The notes below the pieces were generated by a model that saw nothing but the letters and a program-made list of their open reading frames with translations, searched no databases and was not told the origin of the DNA. Of a stretch of 50,383 nt of DNA, positions 21,158-50,083 are shown piece after piece; the first letter of the stretch is position 1; each line of letters begins with the position of its first letter. Both the position numbers and the translations under genes were made by a program. Origin of the DNA: a virus; IMG/VR virus record IMGVR_UViG_3300000547_000196, positions 21,637 to 72,019 of that record; one strand, given 5' to 3'.

Positions 21158-21311
21158 TTTTTTTACTTCCGAAAGGTTTATTCCGCGTTGCTCGATTTAC
21201 TTTTTGTAGTCGCTTAGGATAATTATATCTTATTAGCTGACGTTTAATTTTGTCTGCTCTTAAGCCGTTAATTTTATTAAGGGATAAATCATAAGAATTA
21301 ATGTAATTCAT
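21150..21311 (-). CDS. small basic protein, 53 aa
   Basis: A short gene not previously obvious because of its size. The product, MNYINSYDLSLNKINGLR at its start, is highly basic (RQLIRYNYPKRLQKVNRATR). It is preceded by GATAAATA with 5 nt between the motif and the ATG, so its message should be leaderless. It overlaps the next gene by 8 nt. The coupling and promoter support a real gene; the function is unknown. Confidence 0.65.
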   Translation of the reverse strand: MNYINSYDLSLNKINGLRADKIKRQLIRYNYPKRLQKVNRATRNKPFGSKKND

Positions 21312-21316
21312 GTAGA

Positions 21317-21323
21317 TATTTAT
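21317..21323 (-). promoter_or_regulatory. late-promoter motif ATAAATA, 5 nt from ATG
   Basis: Minus-strand GATAAATATCTACATG. With the T4 late spacing, transcription would begin at or next to the A of the ATG at 21311. Confidence 0.55.
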
Positions 21324-21381: not shown

Positions 21382-21696
21382 ATGGAAATTTCAATTGTGA
21401 TTGTAATTGCTGCATTAGTTGTAGCAGCTTTAGGTTATTTTGTTCTAAGCGAGTCTAAGGAAGAAACACTAGACAAGCCTATTGTAACACCTAATGTAGA
21501 TAGCAAGAAAGAAACAAAGGCCGCAGCTAAAAAGTCTTCTACTACTGCTCCTAAAACAAAGAGCAAAAAGAAAACAGCAGTAAACTTTGATGCTATGACT
21601 AAAACTCAGCTATTAGAGCATGCTAAAAAGAACAATATTAAAGTAAATGCCAGCATGAAGAAAGCTGAGATTGTAAGCAAAATCAAGACCGGTTAA
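21382..21696 (+). CDS. membrane-anchored SAP/HeH-like protein, 104 aa
   Basis: The N-terminus is a membrane anchor (about residues 3-23, ISIVIVIAALVVAALGYFVL). A Lys/Thr/Ser/Ala-rich linker follows, then a C-terminal helix-extended-loop-helix domain (MTKTQLLEHAKKNNIKVNAS then KAEIVSKIK) as in SAP and Rho-N domains that bind nucleic acid. Such a layout could tether DNA or RNA to the host membrane; this is inference. Strong SD AAGGAGG precedes the ATG by 8 nt. It overlaps the convergent coiled-coil gene by 14 nt. Confidence 0.8.
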   Translation: MEISIVIVIAALVVAALGYFVLSESKEETLDKPIVTPNVDSKKETKAAAKKSSTTAPKTKSKKKTAVNFDAMTKTQLLEHAKKNNIKVNASMKKAEIVSKIKTG

Positions 21697-33953: not shown

Positions 33954-34293
33954 TGATTTAGTAGCTGCAATATCAGAATATGGTTTTCCTATCATAGCCG
34001 CCATGGGACTTGGCTATTTTGTGTTTTTTGTATGGAAATGGGTTACAGAAGAAGTCAAGCCTGTGCTCAATGACGCAAATACCACTCTTATCAAGCTCGT
34101 AGATAGAATACGAATGCTTGATAACGACATGATACGCCTCAACACCAAACTCGCAATGGTTCTAGAATATAGAAATCAAATAGAACAAGCACGAGGCGAG
34201 TCGATCGATGAAGAATTAGAAGAGATAATCAACAGAAACAAATCAGTGTCAGAGACTTTCAACTCTACAGGTGAGAAGGATGATGGAAATTAG
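33946..34293 (+). CDS. small membrane protein, paralogue of previous gene
   Basis: Start taken as GTG at 33946, 9 nt after AGGAGG; an ATG at 33937 sits too close to that site. The product has 115 residues, with a span at about residues 9-34 (SEYGFPIIAAMGLGYFVFFV), a coiled-coil middle (LNDANTTLIKLVDRIRMLDN) and a charged tail. It resembles the preceding protein in order and motif, suggesting duplication. Confidence 0.72.
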   Translation: MTDDLVAAISEYGFPIIAAMGLGYFVFFVWKWVTEEVKPVLNDANTTLIKLVDRIRMLDNDMIRLNTKLAMVLEYRNQIEQARGESIDEELEEIINRNKSVSETFNSTGEKDDGN

Positions 34294-34405
34294 AGACAAA
34301 GTGTGCGAAAAGATATGGGACGAGTCTAGTCTTGTTTGTACTCTAGGAGTAGGAGCAGCCGTAGGCTCGCTTGTTATGGCTGTAATCGTTCTTATTGTTA
34401 TTTAG
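34280..34405 (+). CDS. very small membrane protein, 41 aa
   Basis: Read directly: ATG at 34280 or 34283, behind AAGGA, overlapping the preceding stop. The product MEIRDKVCEKIWDESSLVCT ends in one hydrophobic span (LGVGAAVGSLVMAVIVLIVI). It is the third membrane protein in a row and overlaps the convergent cyclase stop by 8 nt. Three short membrane proteins in one coupled operon suggest a membrane complex. Confidence 0.6.
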   Translation: MMEIRDKVCEKIWDESSLVCTLGVGAAVGSLVMAVIVLIVI

Positions 34406-36452
34406 AATCTGCTATAAACACGCCGTTCCAGTCTCGAGGTAAATCCTGCTTTGCCATAAAGTCACAGCGAGCCTGCCACATTTCATAGTAAGCAGTCATT
34501 CTGTCGTCAAATTCTGTTTTTAGATCTTCGCATAATGCCCTTGCTCTGTCGAACTTCTGTGCCTGATACAATTTGTGCATACGATTGTGTTCTTCCTGTG
34601 CAAGCAAATAGGCGCCTATATCAACACCTTCTGTATCTAACACTGTGTAAATGCCAATGCCATAACTCTTGCCTTTTACAGCAAGATCATCTACCTTAAG
34701 GAAGAAAAAGTCTTCCGCACACTGTTTTACTGTGTCTTCTCCGACAAGAAGTAGACATCCGTATTCCTTACACTTTGATTCAATTCTTGCGGCAGTAGAG
34801 ACTGCGTCCCCCAAAACATCATATGAGTGTCGTTTTGTAGAACCCATTTCTCCGAGATAGCCAACACCACTGTTAATGCCAGCGCCCATACCAACAGGAG
34901 GGCGTCCTTCTTGAGTAATTTTGTCATTGAATTTCTCCACGGCTCGTATCATTGCCAAACCTGTTTCTACTGCGGTGTGCGGATGATCGTCATCTTCAAG
35001 CGGAGCACCGTGTATGTGCATACTTGCATCACCTATGTATTTTATTATCATACCGTTTCTTTCAATCACAGGCTCTGTTATGGCATCCATATAGCCATTC
35101 ATTAGCGCAGTCAATCCTTTTACATCGTCGCCAAACGATTCACCCAGAGGCGTGAATCCTCGCAAGTCTGAGAACACAATAGAAATATCTTGTTTTGTGC
35201 CTTCCTTGACAAGCGCGGGATTTTCCTGTAGCAGTTTGACAACCGCAGGTGATGCATAGCCTGCAAACTGTTTCTTGATTGCCTGTTTCTCTCTAAACTC
35301 TTTCACAAAGCGAAGGAATACAGAGTGCAAGCCAACTAACACTAGAGCAATAACAGCCATAGTGCCGTCAAGCAGATAAAGGTGATTTGTCCAAGCCCAA
35401 TGCACGCCATAAGCCGCGCCAGCACCTAACATAATCATTCCCAAGCCTACCGTCCAGTATGGTGTAAACCTACCTAGAAGAACTACTGCTAATCCTAGAA
35501 CCAGTGTGCCGGCAAGTTCTGCTTGAAATGCCCAGTATGGTCTTTCTATCTGTTCTCCGTCTATGAGAGTCTGCAGTGTAACAGCAGCAGGTTCATAGTT
35601 GTATCGTGGACCTGTAGGTGATGCTATTACACCACCTATTCCCGCAGCCTGTGCGCCTATTATAACAGTCTTGCCTTGAAAACGAGAAAAGTCCTGTTCT
35701 GCTGCGGATATCGTAGGAAACTCTTTGTTCCAGCGCAGCCATATCCTTCCGTTGGGATCTGTGTTTATGACGGGGAAGCCAGGCACTCTGACAGCTTCTA
35801 TGCCTGCGCCCTGTTCTTTTACCTGGTAGGAAGGCTGTTGAGTTGCTACTCGAATAACTTCTATGCCCAGTGATGGAAACACTTCATTGTCTACTCGCAT
35901 GAGCAGAGGCACTCTTCTTACTACACCGTCTCGTTCAGGCACGGTGTTAATAACACCTACACCATCTGCTGATTCGGCCAGTTCGGGTATAGGTCCTAGC
36001 ACGCCCTGCCATTGATAGAGGTAAGGAACAGGATCGCCTATTTTCGCAATGCCTCTAGGCACTGCATTCTGAGATTCACCTGCAATGCCTGTCTGTGCTA
36101 TTACTACACCATTGTTTTCTAGTGTTTCTGCGAGATAGTCATCACCGCCCAGTCTATCTGTTTCTGAAAAAAGCACAGGTATGACAATTACTCCCGCACC
36201 GTCACTACGCAATTGCCATACAATGTCTGCTATTGTTTCTCTGCTCCAGGGCCACTGACCATAGCGTTCTATTGCAGCTTCGTCTATTGCGACAACGCCT
36301 ATGTCTTGAGACTGTTGAACAGTATCTGTCTGTTGCAGTAAATCAAACTGCTTTAGTCGAAGAGTTTCAACTACAAAGCCATCTGAGTAGTGAACAAATA
36401 AAACCACTGCAAGGGTAAGAAACGCAGTAGTCCAATGTGTTAGCCATTTCAT
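34398..36452 (-). CDS. CHASE2-domain class III nucleotide (adenylate) cyclase
   Basis: Membrane receptor cyclase of 684 residues. An N-terminal anchor (about 8-22) leads to an extracytoplasmic CHASE2 sensor (about 30-300), three spans (about 312-328, 333-350, 362-380) and a cytoplasmic class III catalytic domain (about 420-600). Catalytic residues: metal Asp429 (FSDLRGFT) and Asp475 (KYIGDASM); adenine-selecting Lys471 and Asp545 fit ATP, thus cAMP; transition-state Arg556. The usual Asn of the VNxAxR motif is Ser552 (AVSTAAR), which may lower activity. It is the last gene behind the curli-like operon and starts 5 nt after a late motif, with no Shine-Dalgarno. A complete receptor cyclase in a phage is remarkable. 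Confidence 0.93.
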   Translation of the reverse strand: MKWLTHWTTAFLTLAVVLFVHYSDGFVVETLRLKQFDLLQQTDTVQQSQDIGVVAIDEAAIERYGQWPWSRETIADIVWQLRSDGAGVIVIPVLFSETDRLGGDDYLAETLENNGVVIAQTGIAGESQNAVPRGIAKIGDPVPYLYQWQGVLGPIPELAESADGVGVINTVPERDGVVRRVPLLMRVDNEVFPSLGIEVIRVATQQPSYQVKEQGAGIEAVRVPGFPVINTDPNGRIWLRWNKEFPTISAAEQDFSRFQGKTVIIGAQAAGIGGVIASPTGPRYNYEPAAVTLQTLIDGEQIERPYWAFQAELAGTLVLGLAVVLLGRFTPYWTVGLGMIMLGAGAAYGVHWAWTNHLYLLDGTMAVIALVLVGLHSVFLRFVKEFREKQAIKKQFAGYASPAVVKLLQENPALVKEGTKQDISIVFSDLRGFTPLGESFGDDVKGLTALMNGYMDAITEPVIERNGMIIKYIGDASMHIHGAPLEDDDHPHTAVETGLAMIRAVEKFNDKITQEGRPPVGMGAGINSGVGYLGEMGSTKRHSYDVLGDAVSTAARIESKCKEYGCLLLVGEDTVKQCAEDFFFLKVDDLAVKGKSYGIGIYTVLDTEGVDIGAYLLAQEEHNRMHKLYQAQKFDRARALCEDLKTEFDDRMTAYYEMWQARCDFMAKQDLPRDWNGVFIADSK

Positions 36453-36464: not shown

Positions 36465-36790
36465 CGTTGATCTATGCTTAGATCGCAGCCCGCAGGATTA
36501 GTGCAGAATTCCTGTATGGAAATAGAGTTTGATGGGGAGTTCTGCTTTATATCTAACGCAATGCCACCGCCACCTGTAAGATTCTGCAGAGAAAACACAG
36601 CACTTGCACCGTTTGATTGTGTGCTATTAACAGAGTGACCATTGCCTATCACAGAACCTTGCAGATAGTTATCGCCACTTGACTGCAACACACTCATTTC
36701 AAAGTCGTTGCCCTGCACAGTTACATCGACATCGCTTGCATTAGCGACTTTGATCAACCCTAATATCGTTAGTGCCAATACCAGTTTCAT
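36461..36790 (-). CDS. minor curlin-like secreted protein (CsgB-like)
   Basis: Start at the ATG at 36790, giving 109 residues: signal peptide (MKLVLALTILGLIKVANA) and a mature protein rich in Asn, Ser, Gln and Gly. The repeated pattern S-x-L-Q-x-x-G-D-N and x-x-Q-x-N is curlin-like (VLQSSGDNYLQGSVIGN, NSTQSNGASAVF), and near the end NSPSNSISIQEF. Compared with CsgA it has fewer and less regular repeats, as expected for a nucleator. A late-like motif lies 5 nt before the ATG. It overlaps the FecR gene by 50 nt. Confidence 0.75.
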   Translation of the reverse strand: MKLVLALTILGLIKVANASDVDVTVQGNDFEMSVLQSSGDNYLQGSVIGNGHSVNSTQSNGASAVFSLQNLTGGGGIALDIKQNSPSNSISIQEFCTNPAGCDLSIDQR

Positions 36791-37880
36791 AACCGTATTT
36801 AACAAAACTGCCTTGAAGAATATCTATAGAATAACCGTGAGATTCACTTAAACGAAACTCAAATATATTGCCTGCTGCATCCTGTCGCCTTACAACAAAC
36901 TCTGGTGGAGGCGCTTCGTAGTAAATACCTGTTTCTTCGTCTAAACCTTCGGGTCTATCCCCGAACACATTCTGCGAAGCAAATTCATCTCCAAGCGCAT
37001 TAGCGGCCTGGTTTTGTAATCGCTCCATAAGTTCAAAAATGTCTACTTCAAGTATATTGCCTGTTTCGCCTAACTCAGTGTCCCAAATACCTTCTATGCT
37101 TTCTGACAGTTTATCTGCATCAAGTTCGTCAAACTCTAGATAATCCACATCCAGTTCTGCGGCCTGCTCTTGCATTTCTCTTCGTGTGGCATCGTATTCA
37201 GATTCATTTCTTACAATAAGCATATTGCCTAACTGATCGGGAGCTATATCTAACACGACAGGCTTGCTAGGCGCTTGGCTAGAAGTAGAAACGGTGGTTG
37301 TTTCAAATGCCTGATTCATTATGACTACGCCTGCGTCTGTTTCTACAGATATTTCTCCTACAAAGCATTCAAGCGCAGCACGAGGATGACTCTGTCTGCA
37401 GGAGGGTAAAAGCGTTATAGTTGAACCGCCTATTTCATTAACAATCATTGCGAAATCTGTGCCGCGCACACCAATAGTAGCCGACGGTGTTTCTATATTA
37501 ACATTTTGTCTATACTTTTTTGCTATTTGGCCGCTTGCATACTTTACCGTGCCAAGACTTGCTTTTAGGCTGATAGATCCTTTATCTTGTGCAGGATCAA
37601 AAACAAACTCGTCTATTACAAGTCGAGAATGTTCTGTAACATCTACTCTAGTGTCATCGCGAAAATCAATACGCATTCTGCCTTTGGCAGTTACAGCAAC
37701 ATCATATGATTCTATAGACACACCAAGTGAACCTTCTATGGTTTCTGAATCTCGTTCAATAGCAGCAGAGCCTGAAATTTCTGATATTGCGCCTATGGCA
37801 GCCCAACTAGTATTAATCAGACTGAATAATATCAACAGCAGCGTTATCGCCTTCAAATGTTGCATCAACTGTGTTATCAT
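36741..37880 (-). CDS. FecR-domain secreted protein, 379 aa
   Basis: N-terminal signal peptide (LKAITLLLILFSLINTSWA) followed by a FecR domain (about 45-165: GSAAIERDSETIEGSLGVSI, RMRIDFRDDTRVDVTEHSRL, GSISLKASLGTVKY, ATIGVRGTDFAMIV). The C-terminal half is acidic and unlike any domain I know. Periplasmic FecR-domain proteins often accompany surface-polymer systems and sigma-factor signalling. The ATG at 37880 has GTGGAA before it; a second ATG at 37865 gives the same signal peptide. It lies between two curlin-like genes, overlapping both. Confidence 0.85.
   Translation of the reverse strand: MITQLMQHLKAITLLLILFSLINTSWAAIGAISEISGSAAIERDSETIEGSLGVSIESYDVAVTAKGRMRIDFRDDTRVDVTEHSRLVIDEFVFDPAQDKGSISLKASLGTVKYASGQIAKKYRQNVNIETPSATIGVRGTDFAMIVNEIGGSTITLLPSCRQSHPRAALECFVGEISVETDAGVVIMNQAFETTTVSTSSQAPSKPVVLDIAPDQLGNMLIVRNESEYDATRREMQEQAAELDVDYLEFDELDADKLSESIEGIWDTELGETGNILEVDIFELMERLQNQAANALGDEFASQNVFGDRPEGLDEETGIYYEAPPPEFVVRRQDAAGNIFEFRLSESHGYSIDILQGSFVKYGYETGIGTNDIRVDQSR
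36796..36802 (-). promoter_or_regulatory. late-like motif TTAAATA, 5 nt from ATG
   Basis: Minus-strand TTAAATACGGTTATG before the CsgB-like start at 36790. It predicts a leaderless message inside the FecR reading frame. Confidence 0.5.
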
Positions 37881-38499
37881 TTATTCCACTCTGTGTAATA
37901 TTGTATACACCGCCGCCGCCAGTTACATCAAGATTTAGACTATGCCCATTAACATCTCCATCACCGTCGATGTCTATGTTAACAGTATTGCCTCCAGCGA
38001 GACTGGCAGAGTTATCAATCACAACAGTAGCATCGGCATTTACACCGTCTACTTCTACATCAACAACATTAGAATCTCCATCTACAGCAAGTGATGCTAC
38101 AAGATTGGAAGCGTCTGCAGTTTCGCCTATTCTAATGTCAATGTCTGCTCCGTTGCCATTTACAGTAACATCAGCAGTAACAGTTTCACAGGTAGCAGCA
38201 TTACCACTGTCACACATCAAATCTACGGAGTTGTTGTTTCCTGTTAGGTTGATAGTGCCTGTATAGGTATTACCGTTTATCTGTGCAGCAATGACATTAT
38301 TATCACCGACTTGATCTATGTCAAAGGTCATGTCGTCACCAGTGAGTATCATAGCCTGCTCTGCAGTTCCAGCAACGTTATCAGTGCCGTCTTGCGTAAT
38401 GTCAAGATCTAGGTTATCACCTATCTGCTGAACATATATTTCGTTTGCGAATACCGCACTAGCGAGAAGTATCAGTGATAGTGTCAGTGTTCTTTTCAT
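37813..38499 (-). CDS. curlin-like secreted repeat protein (CsgA-like)
   Basis: Start at the ATG at 38499 behind AAGGAA, giving 228 residues; the longer frame to 38541 is unlikely. Signal peptide MKRTLTLSLILLASAVFA, then QIGDN, ITQDGTDN, IDQVGDNN and ITQSGINDN, which follow the curlin consensus (Q-x-G-x-x-N). In between are Asp/Asn-rich repeats (VDGDSNVVDVEVDGVNAD) that could form parallel beta-sheet or bind calcium. The protein is longer and more acidic than E. coli CsgA. It overlaps CsgG by 41 nt and FecR by 68 nt, so the genes are tightly coupled. Confidence 0.82.
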   Translation of the reverse strand: MKRTLTLSLILLASAVFANEIYVQQIGDNLDLDITQDGTDNVAGTAEQAMILTGDDMTFDIDQVGDNNVIAAQINGNTYTGTINLTGNNNSVDLMCDSGNAATCETVTADVTVNGNGADIDIRIGETADASNLVASLAVDGDSNVVDVEVDGVNADATVVIDNSASLAGGNTVNIDIDGDGDVNGHSLNLDVTGGGGVYNITQSGINDNTVDATFEGDNAAVDIIQSD

Positions 38500-41483: not shown

Positions 41484-41487
41484 TTTG

Positions 41488-41559
41488 AGCCTAGGACAGG
41501 ATTCGAACCTGCATATAAACAATTTAAAGTCGTTTGCGTAGACATTCCGCCATCTAGGC
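41488..41559 (-). tRNA. aberrant tRNA, anticodon TTA by structure (ochre suppressor or decayed)
   Basis: Cloverleaf-like: acceptor GCCTAGA with one mismatch, D-arm GCG/CGC, anticodon stem AACGA/TTGTT, T-loop TTCGAAT. The 7-nt anticodon loop is CTTTAAA, so positions 34-36 are TTA, which reads the stop codon TAA. The variable loop has only 5 nt, so it is not a Leu-type tRNA. CCA is not encoded, unlike its neighbours. It may be a Leu(TAA)-derived tRNA shifted by one base. Confidence 0.6.
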
Positions 41560-42345: not shown

Positions 42346-42426
42346 TGCTGCCGCTTGGATTCGAACCAAGACCATCCTGCTCACTATGTGCTACAATGCA
42401 GGGCTCTACCGTTAAGCTACAACAGC
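42346..42426 (-). tRNA. tRNA-like gene with 17-nt anticodon loop
   Basis: Acceptor GCTGTTG/CGGCAGC, D-arm GCTT/GAGC, T-arm CTTGG/CCAAG with loop TTCGAAT: a normal body. The anticodon stem CCTGC/GCAGG encloses ATTGTAGCACATAGTGA, 17 nt instead of 7. The extra bases include CAC/GTG that could form a mini-hairpin. The identity is therefore unclear (Thr TGT or Tyr GTA depend on what is removed). CCA is not encoded. It may be a decayed tRNA or one with a 10-nt insertion. Confidence 0.6.
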
Positions 42427-44299: not shown

Positions 44300-44425
44300 T
44301 TACTTTTTGCTATTATCTTTCTCACCCTTCTGGCTGTAGATCCTGTCCCAGCCTTCGCGGTACTTTTTGTCGTCTGCTTTCTTACGACGACCGTCGCCCT
44401 TTCCACCGTGCCATTTACCGCCCAT
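44300..44425 (-). CDS. small basic protein [10 protein letters not shown], 41 aa
   Basis: Read directly: [20 protein letters not shown] then KYREGWDRIYSQKGEKDN. Very charged, with a Gly- and Lys-rich start that is common in tiny phage proteins. The ATG overlaps the ClpP stop (TAATG), which makes translation likely. The 3' end is 10 nt from tRNA-Ser(GCT). Function unknown. Confidence 0.68.
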   Translation of the reverse strand: MGGKWHGGKGDGRRKKADDKKYREGWDRIYSQKGEKDNSKK

Positions 44426-45024
44426 TACTCACCTCGGTGTGACACAATACGATCAACAAGACCATATTCAAGTGCTTCTTCTGCACTCATAAAATAGTCA
44501 CGATCCATATCACGCTCGAACTCATTGTAGGTCTTGCCAGCAGTGTTATGCTCCACATACAGTTCCGTAAGACGCTTCTTCCAATACTGAATCTCTCTAT
44601 AAGAGATCTCAATGTCACTTGCCATTCCACGTGCGCCGCCCGACGGCTGGTGAATCATGTGACGAGCGTTTGGCAGCATCTTCCGCTTGCCAGGTGCACC
44701 TGCCTGAGCAAGAAACGATCCCATCGAACAAGCCTGACCTGTCACAATCGTAGCAACATCTGGCTTGATAAATCGCATAGTGTCATAAATCGCCATGCCT
44801 GCAGTAATTACGCCACCAGGCGAATTAATCATAAATGTAATATCTTTGTCGGAGTTTTCAGATTCTAGATACAACATCTGTGCTACAATAAGATTAGCAC
44901 CCGCATCCTCTACAGGCCCGTTAAGCATAACGATACGTTCTTTCAACAATCTAGAAAATATATCGTAAGAACGTTCACCCTTTGAAGTCTGCTCAACAAC
45001 CATTGGAACCAAATTCATATCCAT
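44425..45024 (-). CDS. clpP: ClpP-like serine protease
   Basis: Homologue of the ClpP proteolytic chamber. The triad is present: Ser100 in GQACSMGSF, His125 in [11 protein letters not shown], and Asp174 in the [20 protein letters not shown] segment. [17 protein letters not shown] (67-83) is the oxyanion region. Length 199 matches mature ClpP, and the N-terminal [20 protein letters not shown] is the usual axial loop and first helix. It may mix with host ClpP subunits or redirect ClpX/ClpA unfolding. SD AGAGG precedes the ATG by 5 nt. Confidence 0.95.
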
Positions 45025-47194: not shown

Positions 47195-47321
47195 TCTTCA
47201 AATACCTTACTAGTTGTTTTGTCTTTGCTTGTTCTCGCATGTATTCCGGAGATTTTGTAAACAATTTCCAATCAATGCCAATGTGATTTCGAGATAGCCT
47301 AATGTAATTTGGTATATTCAT
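47175..47321 (-). CDS. small basic protein, 48 aa
   Basis: Read directly: MNIPNYIRLSRNHIGIDWKL then FTKSPEYMREQAKTKQLVRY and a short basic tail. The ATG is only 6 nt from the -10 of a sigma70-like promoter, so the message is probably leaderless. It overlaps the next gene by 20 nt. Function unknown. Confidence 0.65.
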   Translation of the reverse strand: MNIPNYIRLSRNHIGIDWKLFTKSPEYMREQAKTKQLVRYLKNESNNR

Positions 47322-47327
47322 GTGCTT

Positions 47328-47356
47328 ATTTTAATACAGTTTGTGATATAAGTCAA
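47328..47356 (-). promoter_or_regulatory. sigma70-like promoter
   Basis: Minus-strand TTGACT (47351-47356), 17 nt, TAAAAT (47328-47333). It drives the 48-residue gene and the operon below it (46496-47194 and further). Confidence 0.65.
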
Positions 47357-47447
47357 ACAGTTTCAGTTTCGTTGACACGAAACCACTCGTCTTTGCAGAC
47401 TCGTTTTTTATTTGATGTATATATCCAAGTTTCATGTAGATTGTATT

Positions 47448-47735
47448 AGGTCAGACGGAACCTTGTGCAGGTTCCACCAAAACGGCTTCATGTGAGTTGC
47501 ATCCAGCCGAGACTTTGGAAGCAGGTATTTTTAACGCATCTCCATGGGCTCTAACCTTTCCCGTACCTGCGTTGACATCGCGTTTTCACGCTATCCATGC
47601 ACTCGTTCCACTTGCATGGTTTTTAGGAGATATCGCGCGGAGTGGACGCACTACATCCTTCAGCAACGGGCCGTACCTCGGCTGAATCGTAGCGGATCGA
47701 CTTCTCGACCAACAGAGTCCTTGTGTAGCCTAAAA
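47448..47735 (-). ncRNA. large structured noncoding RNA candidate (about 290 nt)
   Basis: The stretch 47322-47743 has no plausible gene; this part is more GC-rich and full of paired segments on the minus strand: CCATGCA/TGCATGG (7 bp), GCGT-GAAA-ACGC with a GNRA tetraloop, TTCAGC/GCTGAA enclosing CCG/CGG, GCAGGTA/TACCTGC (7 bp), CGGCT/AGCCG, and GGAACCT/AGGTTCC (7 bp). An upstream late motif (47741-47748) ends 5 nt before the predicted start. I could not match it to tmRNA, RNase P, 6S, group I or group II introns. A structured RNA of unknown class is the best description. Confidence 0.6.
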
Positions 47736-47740
47736 GTGCC

Positions 47741-47748
47741 TATTTATG
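47741..47748 (-). promoter_or_regulatory. late-promoter motif CATAAATA before the structured RNA
   Basis: Minus-strand CATAAATAGGCAC overlaps the stop of the gene 47744-48154. No reading frame follows, so it would start the structured RNA at about 47735. Confidence 0.55.
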
Positions 47749-48154
47749 AGTCTAGTTCTTTCGCAGCCTTTTCAATCGCTTTGCTGTAATTGTAAGCCTG
47801 CTGCTTTGTCAGTATGACAGTTGATTCGTATTTCGCATAACCTTTAAACAGAATTCGAAAAATAAGACGTGCTCTGCGAACTGTTTCATTCACAGTGTAT
47901 GCCACGGTTTGCCAAATCGAATTTAAAAAAGGTGAATCAAGATTATTCACTCTTTCTGGAACATCCTGCGTCCAAAAGTCAGTAGTTGCCTCTGTTGTGA
48001 TTTCTACCGTTACCAGTTTTGTTTCTGAATCTCTTTCAATCCAAATAGAATGATAGTGATCAGGACTGCCGCATTGACAATCTACTTCATACCACACAGC
48101 ATCTGAGTATGATGCCTTTTTGCTAATTCCTTCCGCTGGTTGTTCTGCTTTCAT
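47744..48154 (-). CDS. conserved phage hypothetical, 136 aa
   Basis: The N-terminal half has EVDCQCGSPDHYHSIWIERD, which may bind a metal through Cys and His; then ITTEATTDFWTQDVPERVNN and a basic C-terminus ending in KAIEKAAKELDS. Similar proteins occur in marine T4-like phages by recollection. It ends within the late motif of the structured RNA, and the preceding gene is 1 nt away. Confidence 0.7.
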   Translation of the reverse strand: MKAEQPAEGISKKASYSDAVWYEVDCQCGSPDHYHSIWIERDSETKLVTVEITTEATTDFWTQDVPERVNNLDSPFLNSIWQTVAYTVNETVRRARLIFRILFKGYAKYESTVILTKQQAYNYSKAIEKAAKELDS

Positions 48155-49082: not shown

Positions 49083-49485
49083 CTTTAACAAACTCTCCGT
49101 CTTTTACCCGATGAACGACATGATAACCAGACGAGCGAATATAAGATCTACCGCCGTCTATCATGCTTCCGTTTTCAAATTGCTTATAATCGTGTCTACT
49201 ACGACTATACTCCCAGTCACCGTCGTCATTTACTACCAAACCAAACTCTAATTCTTCTACTCGATCTGCATTCGTGATCATAATTCTGTTAGATCTATCT
49301 ACAAACAAACCAAAGTATCTATTGCCGAACTCCGGATGAGCCGTTTCTCTATAGAATACATCAACAGGCATGTCAACATTATTAATGTCTGTAGTGCAGA
49401 CATACTTAACTGATACTCCGTCCTTTTCGCTGTAGTGTTCAATTACTCTTTCTGTGTCAAACACAGGAGAATGCTTGATAGTCAT
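49072..49485 (-). CDS. hypothetical protein, 137 aa
   Basis: Beta-rich, acidic 137-residue protein (VSVKYVCTTDINNVDMPVDV, NRYFGLFVDRSNRIMITNAD, DGDWEYSRSRHDYKQFENGS). No domain recognised. Overlaps TilS by 29 nt. SD AAGGTG lies about 7 nt before the ATG. Confidence 0.65.
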   Translation of the reverse strand: MTIKHSPVFDTERVIEHYSEKDGVSVKYVCTTDINNVDMPVDVFYRETAHPEFGNRYFGLFVDRSNRIMITNADRVEELEFGLVVNDDGDWEYSRSRHDYKQFENGSMIDGGRSYIRSSGYHVVHRVKDGEFVKDED

Positions 49486-50083
49486 CGTTAAGCACCTTTT
49501 TCTTAATGACCTTTTTCAGCCCTGGATTTACTCGTAGAGCATGAGGCATCAATTCATGTCTAATATAGTTTCTAGTATAGCAGGTATCTTGGTTGCTATC
49601 ATCCTCTACCCAGGGCACAGAATTCATTTCTGCCCAAAGTCTAAGATTGCGTTTTTCTACAAGACGAAAGGGTCTAATAACATCTCGCCTGCGATAGGGG
49701 ATGATCTTGCCTTCGCCGTGTAGTGAGCTCCAAAGCCAAGTTTCTACGCAGTCGTTGAGGTGATGACAGGTTACAACAGGGGCGCCGCGCTGATCTGCAA
49801 TTTCATCAAGTTTTTTGTAGCGCTCGTTGCGCCAGTGTTCTTCTTGACTAACACCCTGTGGTTTTGCTTCCTTGAGCACTCCGTACCACAAAACAATGTC
49901 TCTCTGTCGACAATACTCCGTTAGAAAAATTCCAGCACGACGACCATGCTTGGTGCCGTGATCAAAATAAACGGCCTCTACATTATGGCGACGCGATAGA
50001 AAATCAAGCACCGCCATTGAATCTACACCGCCTGAGCAGGCTACGATTATTTTTCGAGGAAGTTTGCCTTGCAGTTTGATCAT
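49457..50083 (-). CDS. tilS: TilS-like tRNA(Ile)-lysidine synthetase, short form
   Basis: PP-loop ATPase that adds lysine to C34 of tRNA-Ile2 (anticodon CAT). The 208-residue protein has SGGVDSM (17-23), TCHHLNDCVETWLWSSL, RPFRLVEKRNLRLWAEMNSV, and WVEDDSNQDTCYTRNYIRHE then LMPHALRVNPGL. That is the catalytic N-domain; the C-terminal tRNA-binding domains of E. coli TilS (432 residues) are missing, as in many short bacterial forms. The phage also encodes a tRNA with anticodon CAT (41409-41483), a natural substrate candidate. Start ATG 6 nt after the -10, so leaderless. Confidence 0.9.
   Translation of the reverse strand: MIKLQGKLPRKIIVACSGGVDSMAVLDFLSRRHNVEAVYFDHGTKHGRRAGIFLTEYCRQRDIVLWYGVLKEAKPQGVSQEEHWRNERYKKLDEIADQRGAPVVTCHHLNDCVETWLWSSLHGEGKIIPYRRRDVIRPFRLVEKRNLRLWAEMNSVPWVEDDSNQDTCYTRNYIRHELMPHALRVNPGLKKVIKKKVLNDDYQAFSCV

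Follow-up and report, generated by a model that had tools for sequence, protein, structure and literature searches.

A 292-nucleotide structured RNA with a pseudoknotted core belongs to an unlisted RNA superfamily of uncultured, mostly T4-like phages

The locus

The window analyzed here is a 50,383-nt stretch (positions 21,637 to 72,019) of the 106,249-bp virus record IMGVR_UViG_3300000547_000196, in which T4-like genes are present. The best cultured matches of its sliding-clamp loader are jumbo myoviruses, e.g., PA5oct (53% identity). The window also carries unusual cargo, comprising a CHASE2-cyclase (34398-36452), a FecR-domain protein (36741-37880), a ClpP protease (44425-45024), and a PP-loop (TilS-like) ATPase (49457-50083).

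On the minus strand, the gene for a 136-aa protein (47744-48154) and a small frame that begins at 47321 enclose a gap of 422 nt (47322-47743). An initial annotation, made from the letters of the window, had placed a novel structured RNA of about 290 nt here, within an otherwise fully packed genome. The geneless stretch is real, but the description of its surroundings was too strong, because the gap ranks only fourth by size and the window contains three larger ones. Two other long gaps, with no minus-strand frame of ≥45 aa, lie at 37881-38458 and 33971-34397.

The gap holds two units. The larger is the RNA, a 292-nt element on the minus strand with its 5′ end at the high coordinate (47721 to 47430). 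It coincides with the single conserved block in an alignment of relatives, scores 178 bits against the core covariance model, and is present once in this genome according to a search with that model. A second occurrence of ATCTACATGA in the window (21308-21317) was rejected as another copy because a small reading frame opens with it. The GC content of the element is 50.7%, against 40.9% for the whole window, in agreement with the GC richness described initially. The smaller unit (47328-47383, minus strand) lies downstream and outside the RNA and consists of a hairpin, GTTTCGT/ACGAAAC, and a sigma70-like promoter (TTGACT-17-TAAAAT) for the next genes. The hairpin (47366-47383) is perfect (GTTTCGT-TGAC-ACGAAAC) and occurs once in the window, and it is kept 3′ of the RNA, together with a promoter of the TTGACA-17-TATACT type, in four relatives (L034, L035, L041, and L065).

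Secondary structure and covariation

The hairpins described in the initial annotation exist: GCGT-GAAA-ACGC (47591-47580), CCATGCA/TGCATGG, and GGAACCT/AGGTTCC. Folding of one sequence alone is nevertheless weak evidence: the 304-nt minus strand gave a z score of −1.0, with 13 of 100 shuffled sequences folding equally well, and z scores were −2.2 for the 422 nt and −2.3 for the plus strand. Proof of the fold is comparative. In an alignment of 42 core sequences, 92.0% of the pair cells of the proposed fold are paired, compared with 31 to 44% when partners are slid by 1 to 3 columns; the covariation score of the fold is 0.473, compared with ≤0.091 for the slid versions, and 22 of 38 pairs show changes on both sides. 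PK1, H1, and H2 ranked top by mutual information in 87 sequences, and a tree-based null applied to 28,920 pairs left four with E values of <0.05, two in PK1 and one in H1. The fold is thus proven by covariation. The initial annotation had proposed this comparison and had named a lack of covariation as evidence against an RNA; the opposite was found. The strand is fixed as minus by the frequent G-U pairs on the minus-strand reading.

The 5′ domain (47644-47720) is a three-way junction formed by P1 (47720-47717 with 47647-47644), P2 (47710-47705 with 47700-47695), and P3 (47693-47691 with 47652-47650). P1 and P2 are paired in each of 29 diverse sequences, and the types of pair vary. Two pairs of P3 are likewise kept in 29 of 29 and one in 25 of 29, while a proposed innermost pair (47690-47653) is unsupported. 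Folded in isolation, the 5′ domain of the window forms the same junction. A long-range helix between CAGCCGAG (47687-47680) and CUCGGCUG was dropped because UCUCGGCUG is kept unchanged even in members with a 5′ domain that offers it nothing to pair with.

The core is built around PK1, in which 47631-47626 pair with 47543-47538; each of the six pairs shows changes at both positions, and the central four are paired in 42 of 42 sequences. H1 (47619-47613 with 47601-47595) has a conserved loop with GGAACGA and four covarying outer pairs (99.4% paired); its innermost pairs were rejected as shared structure, being unconserved across the alignment. H2 (47578-47593), the GCGT-GAAA-ACGC hairpin, varies in length and contains inserted palindromes in relatives. 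H4 (47562-47560 with 47548-47546), a GGG/CCC hairpin with the conserved 11-nt loop AAAGGUUAGAG, is 100% paired and changes from G-C to A-U in 8 sequences. Its loop pairs with the upstream strand in the 3-bp helix H3 (47573-47571 with 47555-47553), which is 100% paired and has both-side changes in every pair. PK2 (47570-47565 with 47526-47521) is 98% paired, with double changes in one pair and three pairs invariant in the 42 core sequences. Because PK1 crosses PK2 and H3 crosses both H4 and PK2, the core is pseudoknotted. Towards the 3′ end follow the single-stranded motif ACUCACAUGAAG (47486-47497), identical in 42 of 42 core sequences; the terminal hairpin H5 (47478-47470 with 47462-47454), which is 98.1% paired with one-sided changes only; and the invariant 3′ motif AUCUACAUGAAA (47430-47441).

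Single-sequence folding that barely beats shuffles could suggest the remnant of a decayed protein gene with hairpins formed by chance, and evidence for a frameshifted old gene had been named initially as a ground for abandoning the RNA. Strong covariation already refutes this reading, and no frame is kept: the RNA strand is without an open frame in 153 of 153 non-redundant elements listed, and the opposite strand has only 4, a chance level. The remnant was therefore rejected, with next to no probability left to it. The gap encodes a 292-nt noncoding structured RNA on the minus strand.

Relatives and modular organization

Relatives were recovered by several routes. A search with a neighboring protein brought in 24 loci, and a degenerate pattern derived from conserved blocks gave whole-length copies in L034, L035, L038, L041, L043, L045, L053, L054, and L065, the sequences of L038 and L045 being cut at their ends; L073 was rejected as a chance match to the pattern. 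A diverged copy with 65% identity (E value of 5e-6) lies in another gene context in the contig pair L010/L011. Scanning with a 3′-end pattern yielded at least 120 IMG/VR stretches, and a variant pattern yielded at least another 120. The full element is present in at least 236 IMG/VR loci, of which at least 153 are non-redundant, in a virus collection from which records close to that of the window may be missing.

The RNA was not found in cultured phages (INPHARED) by blastn, the matches being short or from an unrelated hairpin, and the core model had no match in Phosso, Atu_ph07, or PA5oct, the nearest cultured jumbo phages by gp46, gp44, and gp26. A blast match of one type A member (see below) to Roseobacter and Caulobacter phages was rejected, as it came from a palindromic hairpin inserted in H2 and not from the RNA. 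This palindrome, TATACGGTGTAGCGTATATT...AATATACGGTATAGCGTATA (L142:6441-6489, L194:2500-2547, and L195:2500-2546), recurs in phages of Roseobacter and Caulobacter, in CcrBL9 at a site flanked by tRNA genes, and many RNA copies carry it within H2; it has the look of a mobile hairpin element. A search of 84,980 cellular genomes gave only two matches, both in contigs assigned to a single Neomarinimicrobiota MAG from the Red Sea (L192:632-867 and L193:3825-4060); these lie beside T4-like phage genes and are therefore probably misbinned virus. The RNA belongs to a large unlisted superfamily of uncultured, mostly T4-like phages and looks like an unnoticed, widespread viral RNA class. It is dispensable in some relatives, since the closest flank relative (record G009, locus L003) has reading frames filling the interval and no match to the core model across its 194.5 kb.

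Members differ in their 5′ and core parts. Cores of type A, among them those of the window, L116, and L142, occur with the 5′ domain of the window or with a long one unrelated to it. Those of type B (L253, L278, and L291) have a different sequence and their own covarying helices, with the same 5′ junction and terminal module as type A; the type A covariance model scores them weakly (19 to 32 bits), and divergent type B members have another stem sequence at the H5 position. L208 seems to represent a third core type. The core, with at least three divergent types, and the 5′ domain are exchangeable around a common 3′ module.

Constancy is greatest in two short unpaired motifs, CUCACAUGA and AUCUACAUGA, which lie on either side of the terminal hairpin; CUCACAUGA(A/U)G is retained in type B and type C loci. 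Both motifs served as bait in the two pattern scans, so their constancy within the listed matches is partly by construction. Support independent of the bait comes from L034, L035, L041, and L065, which were first found through other blocks, and from L205, found via the covariance model. Of the 151 relatives listed with ≥40 nt of sequence past the 3′ motif, 124 have a hairpin within 40 nt of it, in most cases with a UUC loop, compared with 34 after shuffling; this hairpin is likely the transcript end.

Promoter motif and gene neighborhood

A late promoter motif, CATAAATA (47741-47748, minus strand), reads into the RNA and shares bases with the stop codon that ends the 136-aa gene. The late motif reported initially as pointing into the RNA is thus present, with the heptamer ATAAATA at 47741-47747. 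On the minus strand of the window, where this copy is one of 13, 6 of the 13 ATAAATA copies stand just 5′ of gene starts, exceeding each of 20 other heptamers of A5T2 composition, and NATAAATA behaves like a T4-like late promoter, 14 to 30 nt before gene starts; by these statistics, this genome has a functional late motif of the T4 type. Only 1 of 153 non-redundant homologs among the matches listed has NATAAATA upstream, and late timing is therefore not a family trait. The earlier suggestion that the RNA works late in infection holds in part, in that a promoter-like NATAAATA points into the RNA in this phage: late transcription is suggested here, for this phage alone.

Among the matches listed, 206 loci extend far enough upstream to show the gene directly 5′ of the RNA, and in 188 of them it encodes a SegE-type GIY-YIG endonuclease (Pfam PF19835; E value of 7e-35). 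The RNA may therefore be cut from, or cotranscribed with, the SegE gene in most phages. The order in the T4-like group is gp46, a small gene, SegE, the RNA, and the gp26 side, and the fixed position between gp46 and gp26 looks vertical. The window genome and its clade have no SegE gene beside the RNA. Neighbors vary on both sides: upstream they include SegE, the 136-aa protein, and others, and downstream they change by group (gp26-side genes, metallophosphoesterase-like, or cytochrome c-like). The changing downstream genes and the separate promoter after the RNA in the window clade argue against cis regulation and for an independent transcript.

Comparison with known RNA families

At gathering thresholds, Rfam 15 identified only tRNAs in the window, and nothing matched in 47200-47850 at E values of ≤10. 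Relatives had no match at gathering thresholds; permissive thresholds gave only implausible eukaryotic or far subthreshold matches. The initial annotation, which could assign the RNA to no known class and proposed an Rfam search, is thus borne out by the absence of a credible match in the window or its relatives, and its proposal of a novel structured RNA of about 290 nt agrees with the covariation, the lack of a kept frame, and the hundreds of homologs. No description of the RNA was found in the literature searched, outside which most subscription papers lie. A large uncurated set of phage RNA predictions reportedly exists and could contain it, unnamed. As far as these tools tell, the class is new in sequence and secondary structure, a claim that does not extend to mechanism. 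In broad style, the RNA can be grouped with other large phage RNAs that have no assigned function.

GOLLD and ROOL form RNA-only oligomeric cages, and GOLLD expression rises during lysis, which is paralleled here by the late promoter motif before the RNA. GOLLD (RF02032) resembles the RNA in being phage encoded, large, structured, and pseudoknotted and in having no known function. The two differ in length, many GOLLD RNAs exceeding 800 nt compared with 292 nt here, and in location, GOLLD often being near tRNA islands whereas the RNA is not beside tRNA arrays. No tRNA genes surround it in L142, L116, L034, L065, L110, L080, L130, L192, or L193; the five tRNA genes of L041 are >4 kb away, and the tRNA nearest to the window copy is about 3 kb away. 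Two tRNA calls by ARAGORN in the window (41487-41559 and 42346-42426), one with anticodon TTA, which would decode UAA stops, and one with a four-base anticodon (gtag), are possible suppressor-type tRNAs. GOLLD was absent from the Rfam scans of the window element and relatives at E values of ≤10, and its model matched 0 of 10 whole records in a search in which the positive control was silent too. The 3′ part of GOLLD is conserved and its 5′ part less so (PMC12286853), and the same arrangement was found here, where the 3′ module and core are common to members with two unrelated 5′ domains. ROOL is likewise a phage or prophage noncoding RNA with several pseudoknots and no known function (PMC12286853). 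The present RNA shares the phage origin and the pseudoknots but has no Rfam match at E values of ≤10, is about half the length of ROOL, and lies outside tRNA islands. The most abundant transcript of phage ICP1 is an unexplained noncoding RNA of ~800 nt (PMC7567579), similar by description in that an ORF-less phage region gives an abundant noncoding transcript, although host and phage group differ; it shows that such RNAs can dominate infection (PMC7567579).

HEARO and OMEGA RNAs are also structured RNAs of ~300 nt adjoining a nuclease gene, as the RNA does in most relatives. The nuclease here is GIY-YIG (SegE) rather than HNH (IscB), lies upstream rather than downstream, and is absent beside the window copy; there is no Rfam match, and IscB/IsrB-type HNH domains were absent from the neighbor genes examined. 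Phages also carry tmRNA, including permuted forms, which is pseudoknotted and 300 to 400 nt long. ARAGORN and Rfam detected neither a tRNA-like domain nor a tag in the region, whereas both detect a true permuted (two-piece type) tmRNA in L025 (8854-9266; two Rfam models; tag ANFNVANDNHFEDIRLAA). A permuted tmRNA, which that case had brought up, was rejected, as the L025 tmRNA lies elsewhere and nothing tRNA-like is present here.

Possible role of the RNA

Large structured RNAs conserved across wide distances are often catalysts, RNP cores, or RNA-only assemblies. It seems probable that the modular superfamily, seen at no fewer than 236 loci of IMG/VR and not found in cultured phages, represents a further class of large phage RNA machine, be it a scaffold, an RNP, or a ribozyme. 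In it, several types of 5′ domain and of pseudoknotted core would be swapped around a single invariant 3′ module; it would bear comparison with GOLLD and ROOL without being related to them. The more specific reading, slightly more likely than not, is a trans-acting scaffold RNA that is GOLLD/ROOL-like in style and not by family, has its own late promoter in this phage, and docks a constant partner through its 3′ module. In this phage, a T4-like late promoter of its own would drive late transcription of the RNA, which would act in trans as a stable, compact scaffold, in the manner of GOLLD and ROOL. Its invariant 3′ module could dock a protein, the ribosome, or another molecule of the same RNA, the last possibly via the self-complementary CAUG, and the exchangeable 5′ domain would fit a host- or phage-specific partner. 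We infer such a scaffold or docking function purely from patterns of conservation.

The main rival is a ribozyme or SegE-linked element, in which the RNA would be part of a mobile or self-acting unit, as ribozyme or guide RNA with the adjacent endonuclease, like HEARO/OMEGA or intron-endonuclease pairs. The frequent SegE gene directly upstream, its stop codon lying inside the RNA start at some loci, the compact nested pseudoknots reminiscent of ribozyme cores, and the differing exact position of the RNA among window-type phages all favor such an element. It is nonetheless unlikely, given that the window genome and its clade have no endonuclease beside the RNA, that the T4-like locus is fixed, that no intron, HEARO, or other ribozyme family was matched, and that this genome contains a single copy. 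Less likely again is a cis-acting element, i.e., a riboswitch, an attenuator, or an mRNA-stabilizing 3′ end of the neighboring gene. In the window, the RNA does lie immediately past the preceding stop codon, and in most relatives it comes after SegE; the hairpin frequently found downstream of it would also suit a 3′ end. However, neighbors on both sides change completely with no constant downstream gene class, the downstream gene in the window clade has its own promoter after the RNA, and no alternative terminator/antiterminator pairing was seen.

A regulatory small RNA or sponge that pairs with host or phage mRNAs, or that titrates a host RNA-binding protein via two ACAUGA motifs, comes below both of these and is quite improbable. 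Two near-identical invariant single-stranded motifs and the RNA's own promoter in this phage would be in keeping with it, but the size and intricate fold are unusual for a base-pairing small RNA. Compared with these, the trans-acting scaffold remains the preferred reading.

To our knowledge, few large structured RNAs are known from viruses. This one occurs in hundreds of uncultured phage sequences, yet it has no entry in Rfam, and searches of INPHARED phages and, two MAG contigs aside, of 84,980 cellular genomes did not find it. It combines a covariation-proven pseudoknotted fold with invariant docking-like motifs in 292 nt and is small enough for structural biology, so that the function of a large phage RNA becomes directly testable. 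Separately, the gp46-gp26 interval of the cultured jumbo Sinorhizobium phage Phosso (L196:7411-8424; Phosso 229759-230772) contains ~1 kb without annotated genes, which is GC rich with many short inverted repeats by eye and may be another large RNA.
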